Of a stretch of DNA of 62,457 bases, positions 4,863 through 12,340 are shown piece by piece. Position 1 is the stretch's first letter, and the number at the start of each line of letters is the position of its first letter. A program made the translations under genes and the position numbers. Origin of the DNA: Planctomycetota bacterium (GTDB taxonomy: Bacteria; Planctomycetota; Planctomycetia; Planctomycetales; Planctomycetaceae); assembly GCA_027618475.1 (NCBI GenBank), contig JAQCEJ010000023.1, positions 1-62,457 on the forward strand, read 5' to 3'. The notes below the pieces were generated by a model that saw nothing but the letters and a program-made list of their open reading frames with translations, was not told the origin of the DNA and made no database searches.

Positions 4863-6800
4863 ATGTCGTCAGCTGAAAACACGCCACCATCGACTGCTGC
4901 CGAGGCTCCCTATCCTGGATCCCGTGCGATGCCGCGCTGGAACCTTGCCGAAATTCCTCCCGCCCCGACATTCGGCTGGAAAAACTGGGCGGCCATGCTC
5001 GGACCGGGGCTCGTGCTCGGCGGAGCGGCAATCGGCGGCGGAGAATGGCTCTCGGGCCCGATGATCACCGCCCGCTACGGTGGTGCGCTGATGTGGCTGG
5101 GAATGCTCAGCATCGCCGGCCAGTTGATCTACAACTGCGAGATCAGCCGGTACACGCTCTATACCGGAGAGCCGATCTTCACAGGTAAATTTCGACTGCT
5201 CCCCGGCCCCATGTTTTGGGTGTTGATTTATCTGATTCTCGATTTTGGTTCTGTCTTTCCGTATCTCGCAGCAAGTGCGGCAACGCCGCTGGCCACCGTC
5301 ATTCGCGGGCACGTCCCCAATCCTGCCGTTCCGGCCGATAAGTTTCTACTCACGACGCTTGCCTATGTGATTTTCATAGTGTCGATGATCCCCTTAATCA
5401 TTGGGGGAAAAGTTTATAATTCCCTCAAAGCCATCATGACATTCAAAATATTCATGGTCATGGGATTTCTGCTCGTCGTCGGTTTCTCTTATGTCGGTTT
5501 CGATACCTGGGTCGATGTGTTTAGTGGAATGTTCAAAATCGGCAACGTTCCTATTCGCGCCGCCGAAGACCGCAACAACAACGGCATCCTAGACCCCGGT
5601 GAAGACTGGGACAAAGATGGACATCTCGACGTCATCGAACCGGAAACAAAAGCCGTTTTTGATACCGACAATGACCGCAAGCTCGATGCGACCGATGTGA
5701 ACCTCGATGGCTTGCCCGACCCGACGCTTGCGATTCTTAACGGAGACAAGACGACCTATTGGCCAGATCTCGACCAGGATGGCCACCCCGATACCGAAGT
5801 CATGGTGCACGTCTACGGAGACGATCGCATCGAGGGGCCTTATCGGCTTGATGCCGACGGTGACGGAAAACTCGACCGTTTTATCGACATCGACGGCGAC
5901 GGCCTGCGCGACGGCGCCAACGTCGACAACATTTTTGTATCGCAGCAGCAAGGACGCGGCTGGCCCGCGATCGACTGGAGCACGGTCGCTCTGCTCTCGA
6001 TGCTGGTCGCGATTTCGGGATCGGGGGGGTTATCCAACACGCCGGTCAGCAATTACACGCGCGATCAGGGCTGGGGGATGGGTCATTATGTAGGAGCGAT
6101 TCCCAGTGTGGTCGGTGGACATAACATTCAACTGTCTCACGAAGGGACCGTTTTCACCCCGACGCCCGAGGCCATGCCCCGCTGGAAACGATGGTACTAC
6201 CATGTCGCCCGAGAACAGATTTTTGTCTGGGCACCGGCCTGTCTGTTCGGCCTGGCGTTACCGAGTTTGCTTTCGGCCGAGTTCCTTCCTCGCGGGTCGG
6301 AAGTTCAGAATCCCTGGGAGGCATCGGTTAAGACTGCCGGGGCGATTCAACATCGCATTGGAGGTTTGACGGGAGACACATTCTGGTATTTGACGCTGCT
6401 GTGTGGCTTTGTCGTTCTCGCTCCCAGCATGGCGGTTTCTGCGGATGGCGTGATTCGTCGCTGGGTCGACGTTTTCTGGACGTCGAGTGCCACGTTACGC
6501 AAATTACCGCCGAAAAATATCCGCTATGTGTACTTCGGCGTTCTTTCGACGTATATCCTGTTTGGTCTGGTGATGCTTTCCTTGAACCCGGAAAAACTCA
6601 TCAAGATCGCCACCACAATTTTCAATTTCGCCCTCGGCTTCAGCTGCTGGCACACACTATTCGTGAATTGCATTCTGTTACCCATAGAACTGCGGCCCCG
6701 CATGCTTGTCCGCATCGCCATGACGGTCGCCGGGCTCTTTTTCTGGATCGTGGCGACGATCTCGGCGTATGTGAACCTCAAAGAATTGGGATGGATTTAA
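4863..6800 (+). CDS. Nramp-like transporter with inserted calcium-loop domain
   Basis: A 645-residue membrane protein that resembles the Nramp (LeuT-fold) metal transporters. TM1 near residues 40-60 carries GPGLVLGGAAIGGGEW, so GGGEW stands where classical Nramps have the metal-binding DPGN. TM6, after residue 374, has ISGSGGLSNTPVSN instead of the usual A/C-x-x-M-P-H. This suggests a divergent, perhaps non-Mn/Fe, subgroup. Five membrane segments precede residue 220. Residues 225-360 are then a hydrophilic insert with seven acidic loops of the D-x-D-x-D-G-x-x-D type (first at D236, last at D342), such as DWDKDGHLD and DIDGDGLRD. The remaining membrane segments follow. With Nramp topology the TM5-TM6 loop faces the periplasm, so the insert should be outside, where calcium is available. 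The fold assignment is fairly sure; the substrate is unknown. Confidence 0.75.
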   Translation: MSSAENTPPSTAAEAPYPGSRAMPRWNLAEIPPAPTFGWKNWAAMLGPGLVLGGAAIGGGEWLSGPMITARYGGALMWLGMLSIAGQLIYNCEISRYTLYTGEPIFTGKFRLLPGPMFWVLIYLILDFGSVFPYLAASAATPLATVIRGHVPNPAVPADKFLLTTLAYVIFIVSMIPLIIGGKVYNSLKAIMTFKIFMVMGFLLVVGFSYVGFDTWVDVFSGMFKIGNVPIRAAEDRNNNGILDPGEDWDKDGHLDVIEPETKAVFDTDNDRKLDATDVNLDGLPDPTLAILNGDKTTYWPDLDQDGHPDTEVMVHVYGDDRIEGPYRLDADGDGKLDRFIDIDGDGLRDGANVDNIFVSQQQGRGWPAIDWSTVALLSMLVAISGSGGLSNTPVSNYTRDQGWGMGHYVGAIPSVVGGHNIQLSHEGTVFTPTPEAMPRWKRWYYHVAREQIFVWAPACLFGLALPSLLSAEFLPRGSEVQNPWEASVKTAGAIQHRIGGLTGDTFWYLTLLCGFVVLAPSMAVSADGVIRRWVDVFWTSSATLRKLPPKNIRYVYFGVLSTYILFGLVMLSLNPEKLIKIATTIFNFALGFSCWHTLFVNCILLPIELRPRMLVRIAMTVAGLFFWIVATISAYVNLKELGWI

Positions 6801-7130: not shown

Positions 7131-8633
7131 ATGTCTTCACAACCAACTGCCAAACTTTCCGCTCTTTCGCGAAACCATCTCTCAGAATCGGCTCCCTCGG
7201 GCTTTGCCAGTCTTGTCGATCAGGTCTTTACGTCGCCGTTTCTTATCGGTGCCGTAATGACCTACACGTTTTATCTGATGATTCCGCGATCTCCGGTCTT
7301 CCGCGATCTGCTCGAACGGTATTGTTGCAGCCACCCGATTGAATACGCCACAGTCTATATGTTCTTCATCAGCCTGGCGATCTTGCTTAAGAAGAGTGTC
7401 GGACTCATCGGCGAAAACTCCAGTCTGAAGCGCGATACGCTTCCCACGGCACAATTCTCGGGCTCCAACCTCGCGATTCCTGTCGCCGAAAAATTGCAGG
7501 AACATGTCGGTTCGCAGTCATCGCGCTGGAGATCGTCGATCTGGGGACATCGCCTGCAGGATATCATCCATTATCTTCGCGGCAAGCAAAGCCCCGAAGG
7601 ACTCGACGATCATCTCCGATATCTCGCCGACATGGCAGCCGACCGAATTCATTCGAGCTACGCTTTGGTCAGGACCATCACGTGGGGTATCCCGATTCTG
7701 GGATTTCTCGGGACGGTCATCGGCATCACGCTCGCGATCTCCAACGTCACTCCCGAACAACTCGATCAATCGCTCGATCAGGTGACGCGCGGACTGGGGG
7801 TCGCCTTTGATACGACGGCGTTGTCTCTGAGCCTTTCACTGGTGATGGTCTTTATCACCTTCGTCGTGGAAGGAGCCGAACAACAGGTTCTTACGCGGAC
7901 CGAAGAACTGGCCATGCATCAAATCGGGACGTTGTTTTCGTCGCGAAAGTCGGAAAGCCCGCTCGTTCAGGCCGAAGCCGACGCCGCTGCGCTGCTCGTC
8001 GAACAGACTCATCGCTGGCTGTCGTCACAACAAGACATCTGGAGTCGATCACTCGATGAACTACGCACGAGTTGGTCGACATCGCTCGAACGGCAACGAG
8101 AAGACTTGACCGCCGCGCTCAACGCGGGTGTTGAAGAATCCCTGGCGGGACACGTTCAACAAATCGCCGATGTCCGGGGCGAGTTTCTTTCATCGCTTCG
8201 CGAGATGGCCGAGACATTCTCGGCGGGCGTGACCGAAGAACGACGGCAGCACCACGCACATATCTTGAAATCAGAGCAACAGATGCAATCGCTGTTTGAA
8301 CAGTGGCAAGGTCAGTCTCATGCGGTCTTAGAGACACATTCCCGTCAGTTCAGTGACGTGTTGCAGTCTTGTACCGATGAAATCCAGTCATGCCAGAAAG
8401 AACTGTCTCGCTCGACAGAAACGCTCGCCAACATCCTCTGCGCCTGGAAAGATCGCGCAGAGACATTGTCGGAAATGAAAGAAGATCAACATCAGCTTGT
8501 CGATCTTCAAGGCCAGCTGGCCCGCAATCTCGAAACCGTTCGCGCGGCCGAATCACTCGAAAAAACGCTGCATGGACTGACGGCCGCCGTGCATCTCTTG
8601 ACGATGAAATCACCCAACAGCAAAGCCGCGTAA
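7131..8633 (+). CDS. MotA/TolQ/ExbB-type proton channel protein
   Basis: A 500-residue inner-membrane protein. Four membrane segments are visible: near residues 36-52, 75-95, 183-205 and 225-248. The last two carry the family signature GIPILGFLGTVIGITLAI and AFDTTALSLSLSLVMVF, matching the GLLGTV and TTA motifs of ExbB/TolQ/MotA that line the proton path. After residue 250 comes a long cytoplasmic tail of about 250 residues, rich in Glu, Gln and Arg and very probably coiled-coil. ExbB and TolQ have no such tail, but ZorA-like and other long MotA-family proteins do. The two genes downstream encode single-pass proteins with ExbD-like anchors, so this is likely the channel ring of a three-part motor. 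No ribosome site is obvious before the ATG. Confidence 0.88.
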   Translation: MSSQPTAKLSALSRNHLSESAPSGFASLVDQVFTSPFLIGAVMTYTFYLMIPRSPVFRDLLERYCCSHPIEYATVYMFFISLAILLKKSVGLIGENSSLKRDTLPTAQFSGSNLAIPVAEKLQEHVGSQSSRWRSSIWGHRLQDIIHYLRGKQSPEGLDDHLRYLADMAADRIHSSYALVRTITWGIPILGFLGTVIGITLAISNVTPEQLDQSLDQVTRGLGVAFDTTALSLSLSLVMVFITFVVEGAEQQVLTRTEELAMHQIGTLFSSRKSESPLVQAEADAAALLVEQTHRWLSSQQDIWSRSLDELRTSWSTSLERQREDLTAALNAGVEESLAGHVQQIADVRGEFLSSLREMAETFSAGVTEERRQHHAHILKSEQQMQSLFEQWQGQSHAVLETHSRQFSDVLQSCTDEIQSCQKELSRSTETLANILCAWKDRAETLSEMKEDQHQLVDLQGQLARNLETVRAAESLEKTLHGLTAAVHLLTMKSPNSKAA

Positions 8634-8756
8634 TTGGTTGTTTTCGCATCGCTTTTCCATTTCTCACTATTTTGAAGGTTGTCGACCGCATCGTTTGTCC
8701 TCGTATTCACTGGGCTGGTCCGGTCGATTCCTGTTTTCTTCAATCGTTGCCTTTCC

Positions 8757-11147
8757 ATGTCTCGCACCTCTCGTCGCAATCACAATACGATCTCGCTGTT
8801 TCCGTTCTTGGCGGTGCTGGTCTGCGTTCTAGGGGGGCTGATTCTCCTGCTCGTGGTCAACACCCGTCGTATGCGAATGCAGGGACAGGAAGAAGTCGAG
8901 GCCCAACAAATCGCCTCTGTCTCGTCAAAGGCAACGGTCGTACCTTCACCTGAGCCCTCTGCAAACGAACCGGACATCTCTCCTCCGGTACCACAATTTC
9001 CGCGTAACATCGAGGCCGTTCCGGATTCTCCGCCACCACCTGCCGTGACGGATGAAGACCGCGCCGCCCAGGAAGCTCTCATCGCCGAAAAGTGGCAACG
9101 GATTGCCGATCTTGAACAGAAACTCAATGAACTGAACGAGACTCGTCGTGAACGACAGGTGACTCGGGCCAAGCTGGAAACGCTGCTCGAAAAAACCAAC
9201 GAACGGCTCGCCATCGGGACGAACTCCATCGGTGCTCTCGATCAGTCGCTCGAACAGACGCGCGGCGAACATGCCCAAATCGAACAAGAAACGCTGATCC
9301 TGAATAGTGAATACGACCGTCTGATGCGGTATCGAGATCAACTCGAACGGGAACTCGAATACGCCAAAGCCCAACAGGCAGACGTCGCGAACCGTTACGC
9401 TTTTGTGCCGTACAACGGGCAGAAAGGAACCTCACGCCGTCCGATTCTGATCGAATGCACCGAACAATACATCCGCTTTCTGCCGGAAGACATTCGCCTG
9501 ACGCCGCGAGACTTAAACGGTTTTACCCCCAGCATCAATCCGGTGTTGACCGGTGCGCAAACACTGTCTGCATACTGGCGTGCCTGGCATCGCATGCACC
9601 CCGAAAAGGGGGTCGAAGATGAACCGTACGTGATGCTCATCGTCCGTCCGTCGGGAAGCGTTTCCTACTACATCGCCCGCAAACTGCTCGACGGTCTGAA
9701 CCAGCCATACGGTTACGAACTCGTTTCCGCCGATTGGGAACTCGATCTCGCCGTACCCGATCCTCGCGCGAAACGGGAGTGTCAGGCGGCGATCGATGCT
9801 TTAATGAAGCAGCGCGACCGCATCCATCAGGAGATTCATTCGCAGCCTTTTTTCAAAGAAGAACCGATCACCCTCGATCAACCGCGTAATCGATTCGACG
9901 TAGCAAGCGTTGAAAGTTCAGACCCACGGCGGCAGTCGCGTACTCGCTCGTCATTTGATCCCAACGGTCCTGTTTCGGTGAAACCGTCAATTTCGTCCCC
10001 CGAGTCGGGAGAAATCGAAGGGGGGCTCTCGACATCGCGACCGATGCTTGCGTTGGAACAACCGCCGGCCCGTTTCCCCGCATCACCCCACGATCGCCAA
10101 CTGACGACCGAGCGGAAAGATGAACTCGCCTCCCTACCTCCCGAACCAGGTCGACCCCGCAAGATCGCCGACGACGAACGGACCGAATTGACGCCGTTCG
10201 ATCGTATTGTCGAATTCCCCAATATCGACGACCTTCATCCCGATCGCGCCGATCAGCCGACTCGCTTCGGCGACGGCTTTACGGAAAATCGCCTCGAGAC
10301 CGACAACATCGCCAATTCGTTAAACGACTTCGAGAAGCACTCGGGAGACGTTCTCGATCTCGCCAATCCCGATTATCACTTCGGCGATGAAATTCCGGTG
10401 ATGGATGGTGAAAAAAAGACCTTCGGTCCCCCCCAACAAAATTTTCCGGAGGGGAAACGATCGACCGGAAATGACAAAAGCACACAACGAACCGATAAAG
10501 ACCGCATCGCGAAAGGGAAACCCGGCGACACGCAAACGCCCGATCAGCCGGGTAACAACACCCCGAATTCTTTCGGTTCGTCTTCGTTGAACTCGTCAGG
10601 CACCGGCTCGTCACCATCGAACGGCAACTCGCGGCAGGGGCGTGGCCAAAGTTCCCCTTTGATTATGGATCTCGGCAAACCCAAATCGCGCGACGGAAGA
10701 AGCATCGACACCAGACGCTGGGGTTCGCCGGCACCGGGTGCCACGATTGGTTACGAACGCGAACTCCCCATTCAGATTCAGGACGACCGTACGATTGTCG
10801 GCCAGGTTTCGATTCCTACGCAGGGTGTCTCGACCACGCGTAAAGAATTCGAAGAATCGGTTGTCGCCGCCATCGACCGGGAAGTTCGTTCGTGGCCTCA
10901 ACCCCCCAATGGATTTTACTGGGTTCCGAAAGTCCACTTTCACATCGGAGAAGGGGGTGGAGGTCGTTACGAACAGTTGCACAACGAATTGCGAGACATG
11001 GGACTCTCGACGATCGCCACGCACACCTCGAACGAGACGATGCGGCATCGGGCCGGGCCGGCATCGCTACGCTCCGGACAGTCGGCGCTCCCCGAGGATG
11101 TCCGACCTCAATCGAAACGGCAGACGAGATCGGGAGGGGGACGATGA
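8757..11147 (+). CDS. ExbD-like single-pass protein, Ala in place of membrane Asp
   Basis: The chosen ATG at 8757 gives 796 residues; the frame is open to an ATG 26 codons earlier, but that would add a poor N terminus. A short basic N terminus leads into one membrane helix (ISLFPFLAVLVCVLGGLILL, residues 12-31). The pattern F17-L18-A19 lines up with the FID/FLD of ExbD, with Ala where ExbD has its essential Asp. A coiled coil follows at about residues 100-208. Next is a globular part near residues 220-345 with an ExbD-like V-x-P-x-G...GY pattern (MLIVRPSGSVSYYIA). A long Pro/Ser/Asp/Arg-rich, probably disordered linker runs to about residue 660. A final conserved-looking domain ends at the glycine-rich HIGEGGGGRYEQL segment. 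The stop overlaps the next start (ATGA), implying coupled translation. Confidence 0.8.
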   Translation: MSRTSRRNHNTISLFPFLAVLVCVLGGLILLLVVNTRRMRMQGQEEVEAQQIASVSSKATVVPSPEPSANEPDISPPVPQFPRNIEAVPDSPPPPAVTDEDRAAQEALIAEKWQRIADLEQKLNELNETRRERQVTRAKLETLLEKTNERLAIGTNSIGALDQSLEQTRGEHAQIEQETLILNSEYDRLMRYRDQLERELEYAKAQQADVANRYAFVPYNGQKGTSRRPILIECTEQYIRFLPEDIRLTPRDLNGFTPSINPVLTGAQTLSAYWRAWHRMHPEKGVEDEPYVMLIVRPSGSVSYYIARKLLDGLNQPYGYELVSADWELDLAVPDPRAKRECQAAIDALMKQRDRIHQEIHSQPFFKEEPITLDQPRNRFDVASVESSDPRRQSRTRSSFDPNGPVSVKPSISSPESGEIEGGLSTSRPMLALEQPPARFPASPHDRQLTTERKDELASLPPEPGRPRKIADDERTELTPFDRIVEFPNIDDLHPDRADQPTRFGDGFTENRLETDNIANSLNDFEKHSGDVLDLANPDYHFGDEIPVMDGEKKTFGPPQQNFPEGKRSTGNDKSTQRTDKDRIAKGKPGDTQTPDQPGNNTPNSFGSSSLNSSGTGSSPSNGNSRQGRGQSSPLIMDLGKPKSRDGRSIDTRRWGSPAPGATIGYERELPIQIQDDRTIVGQVSIPTQGVSTTRKEFEESVVAAIDREVRSWPQPPNGFYWVPKVHFHIGEGGGGRYEQLHNELRDMGLSTIATHTSNETMRHRAGPASLRSGQSALPEDVRPQSKRQTRSGGGR

Positions 11148-12340
11148 GCCGTCGAAAACAGCAAAAAGAGCTCGATATCGGTTCCGACTCGTTTCTCGAT
11201 ATTATTGCGAACATGGTGGGAATTCTCATCATTCTCATCGTACTGGCCGGCCTGCAGGTCAAGGATATTCCCCATTCGAAATGGATTTCGTCCTCCGCCG
11301 ATCGCGACGCGCAGAAAAACGAGCTCGTTCCGTCACCCGAGATGCCGATCGAATCGACCGATCGTCTCGAACCACACCCACGCGTCACGCCGACGCTGAT
11401 CGAAGAACCCGCCGACGATATCGCCGTCGCCATCATCCCGAAACCGGTCGTCAGCGACGAACGACTTCAACCGGTACTTCCAGCACCTCCTCCGGAAGAA
11501 ATGGTGACCGAGTTACAAGAACAACTCGTACGTATTCAAACCGAGCTCGAACAGACGGAACAGTCGATAACCCGTTTGCAGGACAAGTTTCTGAATTCCC
11601 GTGAGCAGAGTCTCAGTCTTCAAGAACGAAAACAGAAACTTCAAACGGCCCTCGACCAAACCGAAGAGGCAATCAATCGACGACGCCGCGATCAAGAACA
11701 GGCCCGCATTAAGTTGAACGGCGTCAAAGGGGATTATCTGAATTTGCAGGCAAAAGTTGAAAACGCCCGCCGTGCAAAACCACCGGCGAAAAAAATCGAG
11801 CACACCCTGACCGCCGTCAGTCAGGTGGTACTTGGCGAAGAATGGCATTTCCTGGTTGAGGGAAATCGACTGTCGTACGTGCCGTTGAAAGAGATGATCG
11901 AACGCGTGCAGGACGAAATGAAATCCCGCAAAGAGCTGTTACTCAGGCATCCGCGATACCTCGGTGAAGTCGGGCCGATCGAGGGCTATACGCTGAAATA
12001 TGCGATCGAAAAGCAATCGCTGTCGATCGTCGACGAACTCCGCTATGGACAGGGAATGATGCGCATCGGCCTGACCGAATGGCATATCGATCCCGAACCC
12101 GGCTTTCGCGGCGAAACGCTCGACCAGGCCCTCAAACCCCGATCGCGGTTCCTGAGACAGCTGCAGCAGATCCCCCCCAACACAACCTTGACGTTCTGGG
12201 TTTACCCGGACGGTTTCGATACGTTTCGCACGGTGCAGGCCTTTGTCCGCGAAAAAGGGTACATCGTTGCCGGCCGCCCGTTACCCAAAGGGATTCCGAT
12301 CTCCGGTTCACCGCAAGGAACACGTTCAGCGGGGCAGTAG
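11144..12340 (+). CDS. ExbD-like single-pass protein with membrane Asp19
   Basis: A 398-residue protein that starts at the ATG overlapping the previous stop; a GGGAGGGGG ribosome site lies just before it. The N terminus is short and basic, then one membrane helix follows (SFLDIIANMVGILIILIVLA, residues 16-35). D19 sits exactly where ExbD, TolR and MotB carry the proton-binding Asp. Residues about 119-212 form a coiled coil. The C-terminal domain holds TLTFWVYPDGFDTFRTVQAF followed by GYIVAGRPLPKG, the same P-x-G...GY pattern as in the upstream partner and reminiscent of the ExbD periplasmic fold. It is most likely the proton-translocating partner of the MotA/TolQ-like channel encoded first in the operon. 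What the motor drives is unknown. Confidence 0.8.
   Translation: MSRRKQQKELDIGSDSFLDIIANMVGILIILIVLAGLQVKDIPHSKWISSSADRDAQKNELVPSPEMPIESTDRLEPHPRVTPTLIEEPADDIAVAIIPKPVVSDERLQPVLPAPPPEEMVTELQEQLVRIQTELEQTEQSITRLQDKFLNSREQSLSLQERKQKLQTALDQTEEAINRRRRDQEQARIKLNGVKGDYLNLQAKVENARRAKPPAKKIEHTLTAVSQVVLGEEWHFLVEGNRLSYVPLKEMIERVQDEMKSRKELLLRHPRYLGEVGPIEGYTLKYAIEKQSLSIVDELRYGQGMMRIGLTEWHIDPEPGFRGETLDQALKPRSRFLRQLQQIPPNTTLTFWVYPDGFDTFRTVQAFVREKGYIVAGRPLPKGIPISGSPQGTRSAGQ

Follow-up and report, generated by a model that had tools for sequence, protein, structure and literature searches.

Within the stretch of DNA that was analysed (62,457 nucleotides, referred to as the window), positions 7131-12340 hold three consecutive genes on the + strand, in the order channel, partner 1 and partner 2, and the three-gene layout given in the preliminary description of this DNA was thereby recovered. 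The start of partner 1 was placed at the ATG at 8757; a TTG at 8679, which would give a longer ORF, was also considered as its start and judged unlikely. The features of the locus were as follows.

7131..8633, + strand: channel subunit (500 aa), from the Pfam PF01618 match
7578..7889, + strand: MotA_ExbB domain of the channel, residues 150-253, with G191, G194, T195 and T229, from the Pfam alignment
7899..8630, + strand: cytoplasmic tail of the channel, about residues 257-500, with a conserved C-terminal stretch, from the alignment consensus
8757..11147, + strand: partner 1 (796 aa), Ala at position 19, from the translation and homologues
8811..8813, + strand: Ala19 codon GCG of partner 1, at the ExbD/TolR/MotB Asp position, from the translation and alignment
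9051..9380, + strand: coiled-coil stalk of partner 1, residues 99-208, an AlphaFold2 helix of 110 residues
9402..9761, + strand: periplasmic domain 1 of partner 1, residues 216-335, pLDDT mostly >90
9849..10721, + strand: linker of partner 1, residues 365-655, probably disordered, pLDDT <50
10722..11051, + strand: periplasmic domain 2 of partner 1, residues 656-765, duplicate of domain 1 by profile match
11144..11147, + strand: ATGA overlap of the partner 1 stop and the partner 2 start, read from the sequence
11144..12340, + strand: partner 2 (398 aa), Asp at position 19, from the translation; present in 86/99 relatives
11186..11188, + strand: Asp15 codon GAC of partner 2, one helical turn before D19, from the alignment
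11198..11200, + strand: Asp19 codon GAT of partner 2, invariant, from the translation and alignment
11495..11773, + strand: coiled-coil stalk of partner 2, residues 118-210, an AlphaFold2 helix with pLDDT about 95
11795..12337, + strand: periplasmic domain of partner 2, residues 218-398, pLDDT mostly >90

The neighbouring genes encode a Usp protein, a 645-residue ORF, a thioredoxin-TPR protein, PTPS, CitG, DHDPS and an isochorismatase. No motor or defence gene was found among the examined neighbours by Pfam or PADLOC, and a PADLOC scan of 10 neighbouring proteins, including a search for ZorC/D/E-type genes, gave no match. The 645-residue ORF (window 4863-6800) encodes a membrane protein with no Pfam match at E 0.001. 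By eye it looks like a membrane transporter of an Nramp-like kind, and a loop of it holds an inserted Asp-rich, calcium-binding-like repeat stretch (DxDxDG).

The channel matched the Pfam family MotA_ExbB (PF01618) over residues 150-253 with an E-value of 5.3e-13 and 49.3 bits (cut-off 22.9). Across 47 homologues the Gly/Thr motifs of the pore in TM3 and TM4 are kept, with G191, G194 and T229 invariant and T195 present in >90%, and the alignment of the 47 channels gave the C-terminal consensus FEETLHSLxAAVHLLTAR. The channel had been described as a MotA/TolQ/ExbB-type protein with a long tail; the PF01618 match and a cytoplasmic tail of about 245 residues bear this out, and its membership of the MotA/TolQ/ExbB family was confirmed at the level of sequence. 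The tail has a ZorA-like similarity that stays below the family cut-offs, and the channel profile also matches ExbB and ZorA chains. Zorya ZorAB resembles the present system in having a channel with a long cytoplasmic coiled-coil tail, and it gave the best NCBIfam and PADLOC match of the channel; the score here is, however, far under the cut-off, and here there are two partners. Zorya membership was rejected, as the ZorA model reached 31.4 bits against a cut-off of 100 and no Zorya partners lie nearby.

Partner 1 starts with MSRTSRRNHNTISLFPFLAVLVCVLGG, which contains F17-L18-A19, and partner 2 starts with MSRRKQQKELDIGSDSFLDIIANMVGI, which contains F17-L18-D19. The coiled coils noted earlier in both partners were found again as predicted helices spanning residues 99-208 and 118-210, respectively. 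In the AlphaFold2 model of partner 1, a TM helix and this coil are followed by two domains joined by about 290 low-confidence residues, and the two domains are regarded as duplicates because their profile comparison gave an E-value of 1.9e-9. Domain 2 was matched to ExbD 8p9r (Z 6.5, rmsd 2.7, 71/74 residues) and domain 1 to TolR 5by4 (Z 5.7, 84 residues), both being moderate scores with which unrelated folds tie. In the AlphaFold2 model of partner 2, residues 14-40 form a TM helix, from which a linker leads to a coil of 93 residues (118-210); residues 218-398 make up a confidently modelled domain, whose predicted order of beta-beta-alpha, insert and beta-alpha-beta can be read as ExbD-like with an insertion. 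The Foldseek/VIA list for this domain was dominated by RNase H-like folds with Z up to 5.7, a likeness that we read, from the model, as a common arrangement only. The C-terminal tail of partner 2 (RPLPxGxPIxGSPxGSRSxxQ, window 12276-12337) is highly conserved right through to the final residue, suggesting that it binds something specific.

When both partners were checked against ExbD/TolR by profile, neither was recognised. Neither of them matched PF02472, and their comparison with Pfam and NCBIfam gave nothing beyond coiled-coil noise, with no match to a vWA domain. Our own ExbD profile, built from six ExbDs of the same genome together with approximate sequences of E. coli ExbD and TolR, gave no significant match, and a PDB Foldseek search with either partner returned nothing at E 0.001. 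Membership of ExbD/TolR by sequence was thus rejected for want of a match to Pfam or to this profile. The PF02472 search of the same genome detected ten ExbD genes, all of them elsewhere and none at the trio locus. Contigs C50, C165 and C171 (L121-L137) of this genome carry ExbB loci with tandem ExbD pairs, and both members of a pair have the Asp where both TMs were readable.

The kinship of the two partners was established from their N termini. Aligned profile to profile, the first 50 residues of the two partner families gave 47 gap-free columns, M1 to M1, with an E-value of 6.7e-9; A19 falls on D19, and F17, L18 and G26 are common to both. The match of F17-L18-A19 with F17-L18-D19 is therefore not a matter of chance, and the earlier claim of a gap-free N-terminal match with A19 opposite D19 held. 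The alignments used for the residue counts comprised 49 partner 2 (alignment A1), 43 partner 1 and 47 channel sequences. Position 19 of partner 2 was Asp in 53/53 homologues retaining the motif and in 49/49 sequences of A1. The same position of partner 1 was Ala in 44, Thr in 3, Ser in 1 and Asp in 2 of the 50 loci with the motif (Ala 38, Thr 2, Asp 2 and Ser 1 among the 43 aligned sequences). ExbD/TolR proteins have an Asp where their single TM helix starts; here partner 2 alone has it, with Ala, Thr or Ser in 48/50 of partner 1. A check of whether the D/A pattern is conserved had been proposed, and the pattern recurs in all partner 2 homologues with the motif and in these 48 partner 1 homologues, and is broken by the Asp (codon GAC) in loci L048 and L059. 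Asp is rare in partner 1 although the Ala codon GCG of the window and the GAC of the two exceptions are near neighbours, and its scarcity suggests that selection acts on this position. Each partner has further signature residues, namely C23 in partner 1 (40/43 aligned sequences) and both D15 and N23 in partner 2 (48/49 each, the remaining residue at position 15 being Glu). The preliminary description had suggested that only one site is protonatable. Partner 1 is indeed mostly without Asp, but this wording may be too strong, since 2/50 partner 1 homologues have Asp and D15, which that description does not mention, gives partner 2 a further conserved acid.

Partner 2 was present in 86/99 relatives, and a phylum search with it gave strong matches only inside the class; sister-type systems were matched more weakly, and the remaining matches were mostly to coiled coils. 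For the comparison of gene order, 60 loci were retrieved. Of the 61 loci examined, 50 show the order channel-partner 1-partner 2, so the three genes proved to be co-conserved, their order recurring across the class; no fourth constant gene was found beside the trio among these 61 loci. Two genomes (G034 and G048) have no channel adjoining the partners and a strong channel match elsewhere in the genome, and they keep the Ala/Asp pair. In family f2, an orthologous channel was not found in 12/12 genomes, where the best matches came from other subfamilies, and both partners in the f2 loci examined lack the motif and retain their periplasmic domains. Seven loci (L075, L077, L082-L085 and L087) hold partner 1-partner 2 pairs without an orthologous channel, having new TM segments without the motif. 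As pairs persist without an orthologous channel or the motif, the periplasmic part of the partners seems, from sequence comparison, to have a use independent of the motor. Six loci of family f2 (L098, L099, L103, L114, L115 and L116) show another arrangement, a channel followed by a single partner, GEDSFVAVVVTKLTGALLF. In this partner the Asp position is occupied by Ala, the TM helix contains a Lys, and there is an Ig-like stretch; it is possibly a motor partner without the canonical Asp.

Two types of sister systems were recognised. In the Ser type, partner 1 has SLFPFLS and partner 2 has DSLLD or DSLMD. The genome scan detected 23 Ser-type loci, spread over Planctomycetota and Verrucomicrobiota, and partner 1 has Ser in every one of them; further genomes beyond the scan have this type as well. 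The Ser-type trios (L139, L142 and L153-L175) belong to Pirellulaceae, Phycisphaerales and Verrucomicrobiae, and at least in L139, L142 and L175 the first part of the channel is a CPxC zinc-ribbon-like stretch. In the Asp/Asp type, partner 1 has FAFQD or FSFQD and partner 2 has LLLD. A partial system of this type lies on contig C146 (L186, 1-1196) of the same genome, where the contig start truncates it, leaving the final part of a partner 1-like gene together with a partner 2-like gene (SLDLLLDTICNTFGG). Because sister systems have Asp/Asp pairs, position 19 of partner 1 lines up with a genuine Asp site in relatives. On the channel tree, the Asp of partner 1 may have been lost once or twice. 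Position 15 of partner 2 is Asp in 22/22 Ser-type sequences as well, and Asp or Glu in the Asp/Asp type.

The two partners are also matched in stalk length. The N terminus is separated from the first periplasmic strand by a mean of 218 and 215 residues in the two partners, and this distance covaries between them (Spearman 0.67, n=42 genomes), as was also seen with independent contrasts on the channel tree (r 0.70, 39 contrasts, p 5e-7). When channel tail length or the length of the partner 1 linker served as a control, the contrasts gave no significant correlation, nor were the longest proline-free coil segments of the partners correlated, only the distance from N terminus to domain being covariant. 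The matched stalk lengths could reflect a common periplasmic distance. The channel pore was also compared with the residue at position 19. In L048 and L059, which have Asp in partner 1, 9/26 and 13/28 conserved pore positions of the channel are changed, the median being 1, and L069, with Ala in partner 1, has the third channel that is as deviant in the pore. The chance of finding both Asp lineages among three outliers of 46 was about 0.003 by our own count, with n=2 lineages. Pore substitutions common to both Asp lineages were also considered as evidence and dropped, since the five sites are about what is expected from overall divergence.

The design with two different partners is already published (PMC12204202; AglQ/AglS in PMC9389320). 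PMC12204202 (2025) reports cases in the PVC group where a tolQ-like gene is accompanied by two heterologous tolR-like genes, and it also describes TPH-vWA pairs with a conserved Asp on each partner; in the other group, a vWA transducer and a TPR gene adjoin. The present system is like these in having one channel and two different partners and in occurring in planctomycetes and verrucomicrobia, and unlike them in that one partner is without Asp and that no vWA or TPR neighbour is constant. AglRQS of Myxococcus gliding likewise combines one MotA-like channel with two MotB/TolR-like partners. AglQ and AglS are both described with Asp in PMC9389320, where their assembly as hetero- or homodimer is an open question, whereas partner 1 here has Ala, Thr or Ser in 48/50. 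With the 5:2 motors ExbBD, TolQR and MotAB the trio shares the channel family, the Gly/Thr motifs, a single-pass partner with Asp at the helix start and possibly, at moderate fold scores with which unrelated folds tie, an ExbD/TolR-like topology of the periplasmic domains; it differs from them in its two different partners, one of which is without Asp, in its long coiled-coil stalks and in having no PF02472 match. No account of an Asp/Ala pair was found in a literature search that lay largely outside subscription papers and bioRxiv, and the search gave nothing specific on the role of the trio in planctomycetes.

We consider it moderately probable that the trio forms a trans-envelope motor of the MotA/TolQ/ExbB kind that is driven by protons, and that its axle is heteromeric and has one canonical proton site. 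By analogy with known motors, a channel pentamer would enclose one TM helix each of partner 1 and partner 2; D19 of partner 2 would be the canonical or main proton site, and Ala19 of partner 1 (Thr or Ser in some homologues) would in effect be a fixed neutral site. Passage of protons via D19 would make the channel, with its cytoplasmic tail, rotate against the axle. The axle would consist of two coiled-coil stalks of equal length, bearing one periplasmic domain in partner 2 and two in partner 1, and these domains would probably reach a peptidoglycan or outer-membrane target. We infer one copy of each partner per channel, as well as rotation, the ion number and the target. The heteromeric axle is supported indirectly, by the gap-free homology, the covarying stalks, the Asp/Asp pairs of sister systems, the pore changes and the joint loss of channel and motif. 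As for the heterodimer that had been suggested at the outset, the parts that stand are the homologous single-pass partners, the co-conserved trio and the pairing of one Asp-bearing with one Asp-less partner (gap-free homology, covarying stalks), and the single protonatable site may have been overstated.

A more specific version, which we advance only tentatively and which may well fail, is that the trio is a natural one-site rotary motor of 5:1:1 composition in which a single Asp carries every proton. PMC9389320 gives the number of ions that an a:b motor needs for one revolution as a x b, and it discusses 10 versus 5 per turn. If this relation is applied to a one-site axle, about 5 rather than 10 protons would pass per turn and the maximal torque would be half.

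It is unlikely, but conceivable, that an Asp/Asp homodimer of partner 2 occupies the pore and that partner 1 is an accessory transducer that binds at its side, like TonB or TolA. This would suit the missing Asp of partner 1, its much greater length and its two periplasmic domains joined by a low-confidence linker, and ExbBD-TonB and TolQRA operate in this manner (PMC12204202). However, the TM of partner 1 aligns gap-free with that of partner 2 and has F17, L18 and G26 in common with it, sister systems have Asp at that position of partner 1, and the partner 1 TM was judged by eye to have no SHLS/His motif of the TonB/TolA type. Still less probable are two alternative motors on one channel, with an active partner 2 dimer and an inactive or regulatory partner 1 dimer serving as an on/off reserve. 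A single channel gene beside two partner genes would fit this, and the same question is raised for AglQ/AglS in PMC9389320; on the other hand, translational coupling through the ATGA overlap and the covarying stalk lengths favour a 1:1 assembly, and the motif of both partners was lost together with the channel. An axle that is heteromeric but not one-site, in which D15 and D19 of partner 2 jointly stand in for the Asp pair of a symmetric axle, is improbable, for despite the conservation of position 15 (Asp 48/49 and Glu 1 in the main type, Asp 22/22 in the Ser type, Asp/Glu in the Asp/Asp type), D15 is present also in systems whose partner 1 carries Asp, and its position at the cytoplasmic helix start suits an N-cap equally.

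Current models of the 5:2 motor (PMC9389320) take its two Asp sites to be equivalent and a full turn to use 10 ions, and some need both sites to be protonated before rotation. If the one-site motor were true, it would contradict models in which protons must be exchanged between two Asp sites, and L048 and L059 would have returned to a two-site axle. A conserved neutral-site motor, together with its Ser/Asp and Asp/Asp relatives and the two Asp lineages, would offer a natural test of whether one site suffices, of its torque cost, and of whether an axle with differing stalks serves one direction or two targets. The trio is a class-wide planctomycete envelope system, and it could show how this class of motor converts proton flow to motion.
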